Assembly: GCF_030464345.1 (NCBI RefSeq) | Contig: NZ_VCYH01000008.1 | Span: forward strand, 1 to 64,000 | From: Methanoculleus frigidifontis | GTDB lineage: Archaea > Halobacteriota > Methanomicrobia > Methanomicrobiales > Methanoculleaceae | Reading direction: 5' to 3' | DNA: 64,000 bases | Shown: positions 18,162 through 21,227 of the stretch, piece by piece | How the letters are laid out: the number at the start of each line of letters is the position of its first letter | Position numbering within the stretch: the first letter of the stretch is position 1 | Program-made: the position numbers and the translations under genes | Notes under the pieces: model-generated | Database searches by the model: none | Told to the model about the DNA's origin: nothing | The model's input: only the letters and a program-made list of their open reading frames with translations

Positions 18162-18566
18162 ATGAAGCAGGGTCTCCTCACCGATCGCCAGAAAGAAGTG
18201 CTGCGGTACCGCAGGAAGGGTCTTACCCAGCAGCAGATCGCCGAGATCATTCATACATCCAAGGCAAATGTCTGCACGATTGAAAAGGCAGCTTTAGAGA
18301 ATATCTCCCGTGCACGGGACACGATTGAATTCCTCTACACCCTTGATGCAGCACACCTCTGCACGCTGAAGGCGGGTACGGACCTTTTGAAGACGCCGGA
18401 GCTCATCTACGATGAAGCCGAAAAGGTCGGCATCAAAGTCAAGTACGATACCATTTCGCTCATCAACCGGCTCCGCGACTCAAATCCCGAGCGATTCAGG
18501 GCTCGATACATCCGCGAGGATGTCGAGGTCTACATCAACGAAGACGGCGAACTTTACTTCGGGTGA
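18162..18566 (+). CDS. Tfx family DNA-binding protein
   Basis: 134 aa. The N-terminal helix-turn-helix LTDRQKEVLRYRRKGLTQQQ..IAEIIHTSKANVCTIEK (about residues 6-45) matches the Tfx family, and the C-terminal half has the acidic Tfx-type domain ending VEVYINEDGELYFG. Tfx was described in Methanothermobacter as a protein binding the promoter region of the molybdenum formylmethanofuran dehydrogenase operon. Its divergent placement next to mtd makes a role in C1-pathway control plausible but unproven. The ATG is only 4-5 bases after TATATAATAC, so a leaderless message using the upstream TTTAAG is possible. Confidence 0.82.
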   Translation: MKQGLLTDRQKEVLRYRRKGLTQQQIAEIIHTSKANVCTIEKAALENISRARDTIEFLYTLDAAHLCTLKAGTDLLKTPELIYDEAEKVGIKVKYDTISLINRLRDSNPERFRARYIREDVEVYINEDGELYFG

Positions 18567-18748
18567 GCTCCAGCTCCCGTGCCGCCTGCTCCGGGAGCGC
18601 ACATCCCGAATGCCTGCTCAGGAGCTGCCCCGTTCATCAAAACACCCGGTGCAGACCTGGGAAACAGGTGCCTGCTGCCTGTTGCAGGTACAGCCCGGGC
18701 GGAAACGGCTCCGCAGAATTTCCGGATTCTCGCTTTTTTATGAGAAAG

Positions 18749-18756
18749 TTTATATT
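18749..18756 (+). promoter_or_regulatory. TATA-like element upstream of candidate RNA
   Basis: TTTATATT in an AT-rich patch with no protein gene downstream within 700 bases. It predicts initiation near 18778, just before the hairpin cluster. Confidence 0.4.
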
Positions 18757-18777
18757 CGATTTAAGGCTATGTTTAAG

Positions 18778-19180
18778 AAACCGCTCTGCGAAGCGCCGCT
18801 ATTTCACGTGAACAAATGGGTCAAAATCTGGCTTCTGTTTCACGTGCCAGGAGTTCTCCGGCATTTCATGCCGGGGGATGGGTATGCGGCGGCGGGTCGC
18901 AGGCTCCAGCGGGTGACAAACACACATGGTCGAACCCTCCGTCGGGAGGGCGATATCGAGAAGGAGTTGTGCTTTGCACAACGGGTTGACAGAAGCTGGA
19001 TCTGACTGAGGTGGTGGGCGAACGCTTGTGCAGCGAGCCCGGTTCCGGATTGATCTTTCGGAAACACCAAAAAGATGTCAGGATCTATTCGCGATGACTG
19101 GACGTGCCGGTGCACGCCGGACTGAATCGTTGGCTGGTGCCGTCGGGGAACGAGCGGAGTGACAGGAGCGCCTGTCGCGG
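18778..19180 (+). ncRNA. Candidate structured RNA of unknown type
   Basis: Several perfect GC-rich hairpins with small loops lie here: CCGGCAT-TTC-ATGCCGG (18858-18874), CCCTCC-GTCG-GGAGGG (18935-18950), GTTGTGC-TTT-GCACAAC (18966-18982), a two-part helix GGGC/CGC with GCG/GCCC (19016-19040), and GACAGG-AGCG-CCTGTC (19161-19176). A TATA-like element precedes it. I did not find the conserved RNase P RNA core (GAGGAAAGTCC type) or the SRP RNA domain IV motif, so no known class is assigned. Boundaries are approximate. Confidence 0.35.
18805..18846. promoter_or_regulatory. Inverted CACGTGAACA / TGTTTCACGTG pair
   Basis: CACGTGAACA at 18805-18814 faces TGTTTCACGTG at 18836-18846 across 21 bases. 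Each arm is itself built on a CACGTG palindrome. It could be a protein-binding pair or the base of a stem. The TTTCACGTGAACAAATGGG stretch loosely resembles archaeal origin recognition boxes, but no orc1/cdc6 gene is nearby. Confidence 0.35.
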
Positions 19181-19358
19181 ATCGCAGGAAACCTTCGGTG
19201 AACTTCGAGCCGATACTACAGTCATATACCGTTCCCTTCACGACATACCGCGCCGGGAACCGCAGAGAGGCGGGTGAATGCTCGAGCTGCCTCTCTTTGC
19301 CCGGTGCCGTATTGATGTCATGCCCCTTGCGGGTTCGCCGACATTGAATTGACAACTG

Positions 19359-19376
19359 TGCCGGATCACTCCGGCA
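19359..19376 (+). promoter_or_regulatory. Hairpin in probable leader of ribosomal operon
   Basis: TGCCGGA-TCAC-TCCGGCA forms a perfect 7-bp stem with a tetraloop about 83 bases before the rpl3 start. A leader structure could allow autoregulation by a ribosomal protein; that is inference. The operon promoter itself is not clear, with TCATATACC near 19223 as one candidate. Confidence 0.35.
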
Positions 19377-19459
19377 GACCGCGCGCGAGAATCCATGCAG
19401 GGAAGCAGTCCGTGCAGATCGGCGCAGCAGAATGCAACACATGAAGGGCTGATAGAAAC

Positions 19460-20473
19460 ATGCCGAAGATTAACAGACCACGCAGGGGTTCTCTTGCATA
19501 CAGTCCCAGGAAGCGTGCAAAGAGCCAGGTTCCGAGATACGGTGCATGGCCGGAGTACGCCGGGACGCCGATGATGCAGGGATTTGCAGGGTACAAAGTT
19601 GGTATGACCCACATCGTCATGGTGGACGATCACAAGAACAGTCCCAATGAAGGCAGAGATGTGATGGTTCCGGTGACGGTCATCGAAGTGCCGCCCATGA
19701 AGATCGCGGGGGTACGTGCGTACACCAGCGATACCTACGGGAAACACGCACTGACCGAGGCCTGGGCCGACTCGTTTGACGACGAACTCGGGCGCCTGAT
19801 CACCGTACCCAAGAACCACGACCGCGAAGCAGCCGTAAACGCTATCAGGAGCGCAATCGAGGCGGACAGAGTCGCTGAGGTCTACGCCCTTGCGTACACC
19901 CGGCCGTCCGAGCTGACCGGCGTTCCGAAGAAGACCCCCGATCTCATGGAGATGCGGGTCTCGGGCGGCAGCATTGCGGACCAGTTTGCATACGCAGAGG
20001 CTCTGCTCGGCAAAGAAGTGTCCATCTCCGACCTCGTTGCCAACGGGGCGTACGTCGATATCACCGCTATCACGACCGGCAAAGGCACGCAGGGCCCGGT
20101 CAAGCGCTGGGGCATCCAGGTGCGCAAGCGTAAACACTCCCGCGGCGGGAAGAAGCGCCACATCGGGAACCTTGGTCCCTGGACACCGCACCACGTGCGG
20201 TGGCAGGTCCCCCAGATGGGGCAGTGCGGATACCACCAGCGTACCGAGTTCAATAAGCGCGTCCTGAAGATCGGAACCGACGGCAATGAGATCACGCCGG
20301 CAGGAGGGTTCCTCCACTACGGCCTGGTTCGCGGCCCCTATGTCCTGATCAAGGGATCCGTTCCCGGCCCGACAAAGCGGCTCGTTCGGATGAGACCCGC
20401 TATCCGGCAGGGTGAGCACGAGGCCCGGGCACCTGCGATAAACTTCGTCAGTGTCCAGAGCAAGCAGGGGTGA
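19460..20473 (+). CDS. rpl3p: 50S ribosomal protein L3 (uL3)
   Basis: 337 aa, typical for archaeal L3. It starts [20 protein letters not shown], the usual archaeal N terminus. The conserved core is [14 protein letters not shown] and [17 protein letters not shown], which reaches the peptidyl transferase centre. First gene of the ribosomal protein array, assembled early into the large subunit. Confidence 0.97.
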
Positions 20474-20480
20474 AGCGTCA

Positions 20481-21227
20481 ATGAAGGCATACATTCACAC
20501 ACTCAAAGGGGAGCGCGGACCTGAGGTCGATCTTCCTGCGGTATTTGCCGAAGAATACCGGCCGGACCTGATCAAGCGCGCAGTACTTGCGTTGCAGAGC
20601 ACCCGGTTCCAGCCTCACGGGACAAACCCGTATGCCGGCCTGCGCACCTCCGCAGAATCCTGGGGGAGCGGCCGCGGTGTCGCACAGGTGCCTCGCCTGA
20701 AGAACGGCAGCAGGGTCGCCAGGATCCCGCAGTCCGTGGGAGGGCGTGTTGCGCACCCCCCGAAGGTCGAGAAGATCCTCGTCAAGCAGATCAACCAGAA
20801 AGAGAAGCAGAAGGCCGTCCGCTCGGCGATCGCCGCTACGGTGAACCCCGAACTGGTCAGGGGACGCGGACACCTCTTTGCAGGAGACCTCCCGCTTGTT
20901 CTCGAGGACGGGTTCGAAGCGCTGGCGCGGACCAGCGATGTCATCGCCGCTCTCTCTGCAGTCGGCGTCTATGCCGACGTCGAGCGTTCGAAGGGGAGCA
21001 AGAAGGTCAGAGCCGGCCGTGGAACCATGCGCGGCCGCCGTTACAAGCAGCGTAAGAGTGTCCTGATCGTGACGGGAGACGAACCGCTCCGCGCCGCCCG
21101 GAACCTTGCCGGTGTCGACGCGGTGACGGTGGGGCAGCTGAACGCGGAACTGCTGGCACCCGGTACGCAGGCAGGACGCCTGACGATCTGGACGGAAAGC
21201 GCGCTCCGGAAACTGGAGGGATACTAA
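20481..21227 (+). CDS. rpl4p: 50S ribosomal protein L4 (uL4/L4e)
   Basis: 248 aa. The ATG at 20481 is favoured over an in-frame codon at 20451 inside rpl3. It has the long internal loop lining the exit tunnel (ENGRG-equivalent region with [17 protein letters not shown]) and the archaeal/eukaryal C-terminal globular part ([15 protein letters not shown]). It lies seven bases after rpl3. Confidence 0.96.

Follow-up and report, generated by a model that had tools for sequence, protein, structure and literature searches.

Genes, hairpins and promoter at the locus

The DNA analysed here, which we call the window, is a 64,000-nt stretch of the Methanoculleus frigidifontis genome. Between tfx and rpl3 it contains an interval that a preliminary description, made from the sequence alone, had taken to be gene-free, to carry its own TATA-like element and to lie before a ribosomal operon (Table 1). 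All of this holds. Mechanical open reading frames do cross the interval, but the two long ones tested, 18412-19005 and 18840-19442, had no Pfam match, and a protein-coding origin was rejected for them. The TATA-like element is conserved in relatives, and the operon that follows runs rpl3, rpl4, rpl23, rpl2. Because the longest ORF of rpl4 overlaps the end of rpl3, the true rpl4 start is probably further in. Judging by the spacing from the TATA box, the RNA would start at about 18777, and 18777-19459 is most likely a 5′ leader of about 680 nt belonging to this S10-type operon.

The same description reported four perfect hairpins within about 320 bases and put the chance expectation at well under one. 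Both statements were borne out: 18778-19180 contains four hairpins with a stem of at least 6 bp and a loop of 3-4 nt, spread over 18858-19176, and dinucleotide shuffles of that stretch averaged 0.22 such hairpins and reached four in 0 of 2000 cases. Among 636 segments of equal size, taken in 100-base steps over the 64 kb, a single one held four, namely that starting at 18801, because it contains all of these hairpins. Only two of them, at 18935-18950 and 18966-18982, belong to the conserved block; the hairpins at 18858-18874 and 19161-19176 both lie in sequence that is weakly conserved in the family alignment (32 loci). The strongest structural evidence comes from helices absent from the preliminary description, a long-range helix (18998-19006 with 19077-19086) and the junction enclosed by it.

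Table 1. Features of the probable rpl3 leader region and adjoining genes, in window coordinates
Feature	Position	Strand	Basis or remark
tfx (Tfx-type regulator gene), upstream of leader	18162-18566		
TATA box TTTATAT, putative leader promoter	18749-18755	+	sequence; conserved block
Putative RNA 5′ end GAAACCG	18777-18783	+	22 nt past TATA box
Variable 5′ domain of leader	18777-18933	+	stable fold in window, z = -3.4
Hairpin, 7-bp stem	18858-18874	+	perfect-hairpin scan
Hairpin H1, CCCTCC/GGAGGG, 6 bp	18935-18950	+	sequence-changed hairpin at same place in relatives
Conserved core as modelled (R1-R3)	18953-19096	+	R3 match
Hairpin H2, GTTGTGC-TTT-GCACAAC, 7 bp	18966-18982	+	covariation
Long-range helix H3, 5′ strand GGATCTGAC	18998-19006	+	covariation
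H6, 5′ strand GGTG	19010-19013	+	pairs with 19065-19068
Helix H4, GGGC 19016-19019 with GCCC 19037-19040	19016-19040	+	covariation
H4 inner helix	19023-19025 with 19033-19035	+	covariation
Helix H5, TTCCG 19043-19047 with CGGAA 19059-19063	19043-19063	+	covariation
H6, 3′ strand CACC	19065-19068	+	pairs with 19010-19013
Long-range helix H3, 3′ strand GTCAGGATCT, one G bulged	19077-19086	+	covariation
Hairpin CCGG-TGCACG-CCGG, 3′ of core	19107-19120	+	about 91-92% conserved in family
Long 3′ part of leader, reaching rpl3	19127-19459	+	conservation islands
Hairpin, 6-bp stem	19161-19176	+	perfect-hairpin scan
rpl3 (Ribosomal_L3), first operon gene	19460-20473	+	Pfam match
rpl4 (Ribosomal_L4), candidate ligand	20451-21227	+	longest ORF

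Two blocks of the leader are best conserved: one from the promoter to the RNA 5′ end, and one at about 18930-19125. Averaged over 10 columns at a time, the first is 90-99% conserved among 32 aligned family loci, and many relatives matched stretch 6-50 of a blastn query covering 18740-19459. (Locus L006 was trimmed to its last 900 bases in several comparisons, including this family alignment, and L055, whose motif was not recognised, was left out of one locus set.) The GAAACCG at the putative 5′ end is almost invariant in the family, and several loci of the order's other families have GGAAACCG or GGAAGCCG. Most loci carry a TATA-like element within 450 nt upstream of the core; a simple scan of that interval found none in ten loci, six of which are haloarchaeal-looking, an assignment that draws in part on likeness. 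The 5′ domain (18777-18933) is variable, and its stable fold refers to the window copy. In the window's long 3′ part there is neither a TATA-like site nor a T5 run.

Other features of the region were seen in passing. A T6 run at 18734-18739, which separates tfx from the leader promoter, may terminate the tfx transcript; it is absent from the genus's other species (L002). Also absent there are two CACGTG-containing elements at 18805-18846, which form an 8-bp inverted repeat. Beyond tfx, mtd lies on the opposite strand in many loci, a stable gene neighbourhood.

A structured core supported by covariation

We wrote a structure of 34 base pairs by hand from 28 diverse loci aligned with MAFFT. In this structure H2 stands separately, and H3 encloses H6, inside which lie H4 with its inner helix and H5. 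All loci were hand-picked for diversity. Sets A1 (29 loci) and A2 (28 loci) were drawn from 54 candidates; A3 holds 65 loci, and A4 holds the 55 that remain after removal of the window's family and of L056.

In the MAFFT alignment of 28 loci, 89.8% of cells were paired, compared with at most 48.4% when one strand was slid by 1-3 columns, and double-change cells numbered 82 against 38 in shuffles; this alignment was fitted to no model, although the derivation of the structure from these same sequences favours it over its slid versions. In the two larger alignments, which, being fitted to a model, are biased towards the structure, 92.9% of cells were paired both for the 65 phylum-wide loci and for the 55 loci without the window's family (at most 49.4% slid in the latter), and 25 of the 34 pairs had double changes in each, in 326 cells versus 92 in shuffles and 276 versus 80, respectively. 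RNAalifold, run unguided on the 55-locus alignment, recovered 24 pairs, 16 of them with double changes. Every pair of H6 (4/4) and every model pair of H5 (6/6) shows double changes. So do all seven pairs of H2 in both large alignments, as well as two of the seven in the smaller 28-locus set; H2 is missing or shortened in about one-third of the phylum-wide loci. Thus, the compensatory changes for which the preliminary description proposed to search related genomes are present in number.

The single-sequence minimum free energy of the core yields modest z-scores (-1.6 to -1.8), and the case for the structure therefore rests on comparison. That comparison establishes the stretch as a real conserved structured RNA. 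We also considered a closing helix outside the core and found it unsupported: over 64 of the 65 loci (L123, with its motif unrecognised, was dropped), native partners scored -8.76 kcal/mol versus -8.11 for swapped ones, and a fraction of 0.49 of foreign partners paired equally well. By eye, a few loci suggest that the RNA 5′ end may pair with sequence close to rpl3.

Phylogenetic reach and linkage to rpl3

By blastn, 18740-19459 matched 36 of 40 family genomes, and 18740-19200 matched 68 of 150 order genomes, in several cases through a short, weak match. At E <= 0.001, model R1 reached 195 of 232 order genomes (126 of the 135 good ones), and at E <= 0.01 it reached 158 of 294 phylum genomes; model R2 reached 190 of the 294 at E <= 0.001 (173 of the 234 good ones). 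Each positive genome listed for R2 had a single match, and in the R1 scan of the order one genome alone (G141) had two, on two contigs. Both models include the window copy, so their scores for it are not independent. Model R3, which comprises 55 loci outside the window's family in an alignment made using R2, matched the window core with 108.9 bits (E 6.4e-25) and no non-standard pair marked, and had no other match in the 64-kb window at E up to 10. Named genomes were also scanned for the exact motif. This gave 57 stretches, most of them from Halobacteria (Haloferax, Halococcus, Halovenus and others); the remainder comprised some Methanomicrobiales, one Methanosarcinales and six bacterial stretches, the last probably due to chance.

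The linkage to rpl3 is nearly constant. In 64 of 65 loci, which were selected by RNA or DNA match and never by rpl3, this gene follows the core on the same strand at a distance of 176-464 nt, a figure that uses start codons extrapolated from tblastn. The 65th locus (L056) runs into a contig end. The upstream neighbour varies: tfx was found in 43 of the 65 loci, all of them in the order (43/45 of its loci), and no tfx turned up upstream of the core in the remaining 22. The presence of rpl4 downstream was checked in the window.

Relation to the Rfam family RF03135

The RNA is not of a new kind. The Rfam family RF03135 (L4-Archaeoglobi ribosomal leader) matches the corresponding loci of relatives in 41 of 60 cases: 18 of 20 loci outside the order that had been fetched by their R1 match, each time inside that match, and 10 of 20 and 13 of 20 in two sets of loci from the order, with the window copy among the misses of the second. 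The possible new RNA of the preliminary description is thus partly borne out: the RNA is conserved and structured, but its kind is known. In genome scans, RF03135 scores above the cutoff came from 8 of 17 order genomes, always where blastn or R1 had placed the RNA, and from 9 of 20 phylum genomes, four of the 20 having supplied earlier loci. These nine phylum genomes are also the ones that R2 matches; the cutoff was reached in 0 of the 11 genomes without an R2 match.

The Rfam search that the preliminary description had proposed gave a split answer, matches in relatives and nothing at cutoffs in the leader stretch of the window, where the three matches at E up to 10 were far below the cutoffs. 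Rfam misses the window copy because this copy scores below the RF03135 gathering cutoff (34.5 bits); no RF03135 match appeared in 18500-19500 at E up to 10, and the best matches in the window's genome at that threshold lay elsewhere, with 17 bits or less. Closely related copies do exceed the cutoff. The genus's other species matches the window by blastn at E 3.7e-59, and its copy reached 35.5 bits in the genome scan, its RF03135 match being unreported in one 20-locus scan; genome G002 matches the window at E 1.1e-35, and its copy scored 49.7 bits. The window copy and the RF03135 loci have the secondary structure of the central junction in common. They also share the type of locus, upstream of rplC and rplD, since in the window rpl3 at 19460 is followed by rpl4. 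On sequence comparison, we read the window copy as a divergent ortholog of the RF03135-matching loci that lies outside the range of the Rfam model.

The two descriptions of this RNA differ in extent. The Rfam model has 85 positions and, by the coordinates of locus L109, begins and ends inside H3, whereas the conserved unit described here also takes in the outer half of H3, H2 and flanks such as GAGAAGGA and TTCGCGAGA. They differ in lineage as well. Table 1 of Eckert and Weinberg 2020 (PMC7247131) gives the L4 motif as Archaeoglobi only and marks it with "?", meaning borderline; our matches span Methanomicrobiales and Halobacteria, with one motif match in Methanosarcinales. In the available text of the literature searched, RF03135 or L4-Archaeoglobi is named only in the two papers on Rfam 14 and Rfam 15. 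Default Rfam scanning missed 19 of the 60 loci, including the window copy, which suggests that the model should be lengthened and broadened. Our analysis contributes support from covariation, widens the lineage range considerably, lengthens the conserved unit and brings in one divergent copy missed by Rfam. A candidate tabulated as borderline and confined to Archaeoglobi (PMC7247131, Table 1) now has strong covariation and matches in 190 of 294 phylum genomes.

How cis-acting RNAs control ribosome synthesis has been studied well in bacteria but little in archaea. RF03135 also exceeded its cutoff somewhere in the control genome of Haloferax volcanii; if that match precedes rpl3, feedback on the archaeal S10 operon becomes testable in an organism with good genetics.

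Regulatory interpretation and alternatives

Our preferred interpretation, to which we assign a probability of about 85%, is that 18777-19459 is a leader that acts in cis and through which some protein of the operon exerts feedback. That it is a cis-acting leader of the RF03135 type we hold with high confidence. In this feedback, the TATA box at 18749 would drive transcription of leader and operon as one message. One of the operon's proteins, most likely uL4, would bind the core (H3 enclosing H6, H4 and H5) when in excess over rRNA, and the bound protein would lower operon expression, with rpl3 translation blocked or the message destabilised. We judge translational control somewhat more probable than transcriptional control. 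Some observations count against the leader interpretation or its simplest form. The window copy stays below the Rfam cutoff; at E <= 0.001, 104 of the 294 phylum genomes have no R2 match; and the 176-464 nt between core and rpl3 exceed what would be required if the ribosome site were simply blocked. This distance suggests a binding site separate from the part that acts on translation, for which the conserved islands in the 3′ part, together with a hairpin at the Shine-Dalgarno (SD) region of three haloarchaeal-looking loci, are candidates.

The identity of the ligand is a more delicate matter. Bacterial S10 operons are regulated by L4, and their leaders resemble the window's in preceding an operon with rpl3 and rpl4 and in the feedback by L4 proposed for it; the leader stretch of the window has no match to any such Rfam family. 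We put the chances that L4 is the archaeal ligand at close to even. The assignment rests on analogy with the bacterial leaders, and the available text of PMC7247131 stresses that such assignments are uncertain. A leader of the same operon that responds to L3, L23, L2 or no ribosomal protein at all is quite possible, and it overlaps with our preferred interpretation, whose score covers the leader and not L4. The near neighbour is rpl3 in 64 of 65 loci, and no rRNA resemblance was found, both in keeping with a ligand other than L4; against it, the published assignment builds on the established bacterial L4 leader (PMC7247131, available text). As for rRNA mimicry, R1 had no match in the 23S locus of the window's genome at E up to 10, the 8-9-mers common to leader and 23S formed no telling pattern, and no 23S-like sequence in favour of L4 turned up. 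The weak likeness of GGGTTGACAG in the leader to GGGTGATAG of 23S, presumably within the L4 region, is lost in the haloarchaeal-looking loci and is therefore not claimed. The archaeal eL15 and S15 leaders, as far as the available text of PMC7247131 describes them, are predicted archaeal cis-acting ribosomal leaders like this one, and unlike it they serve other operons and may show rRNA likeness.

The alternatives to a leader fare worse. A stand-alone trans-acting non-coding RNA with its own promoter, located before rpl3 by happenstance, would fit the conserved promoter and 5′ end, the distance between core and rpl3, and the T6 run between tfx and the leader in the window; the linkage to rpl3, however, stays constant across differing neighbourhoods, and no consistent second promoter or T run lies ahead of rpl3. 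The RNA is thus probably not stand-alone, and we consider this alternative unlikely. Of 64 loci, 57 lack a T5 run in the interval from core to rpl3, and 56 lack a TATA-like site there. The interval shows no depletion of T5 runs (7 loci observed, 6.2 expected), and a count that composition predicts argues only weakly for read-through. Chance hairpins in GC-rich intergenic DNA could account for the two hairpins in poorly conserved sequence and for the modest energies of the core, but hardly for a cluster that no shuffle reproduced or for wide conservation; the covariation in the 65- and 55-locus alignments and the held-out R3 match refute this explanation, to which we give almost no credence. 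A diverged second RNase P or SRP RNA would be in keeping with the length and complexity of the stretch and with nothing else, and its probability is negligible. The preliminary description found no core motifs of either RNA here; no Rfam match of either kind occurs at the locus, and both RNAs lie elsewhere, above cutoff, in every genome scanned for them, including the window's own (RF00373 in 7/7 and RF01857 in 4/4), which rules out both identities.

In a broader form of the feedback-leader interpretation, a single ancient feedback switch would govern the output of the S10 operon in most of the phylum, methanogens and haloarchaea alike, in leaders of about 400-900 nt, and the core would be its sensor. 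The core would recognise an operon protein by a fold that is no copy of rRNA and would act at a range of several hundred nucleotides, perhaps by way of a second switch where rpl3 begins, for example the SD hairpin. We offer this extension tentatively and regard it as doubtful in its entirety.

The sequence just before rpl3 has features of its own. In the haloarchaeal-looking loci L110, L114 and L119, a short hairpin, TCAC-GGA-GTGA, holds an SD-like GGA in its loop, and a related hairpin is present in L116; it is possible that this hairpin is a switch for rpl3 translation. In the order, the ribosome-site region (19444-19459 in the window) is unusually uniform. By eye, GGATTGAT or GGGTTGAT precedes the start in 28 of 44 order loci, and the window itself reads GGGCTGAT.
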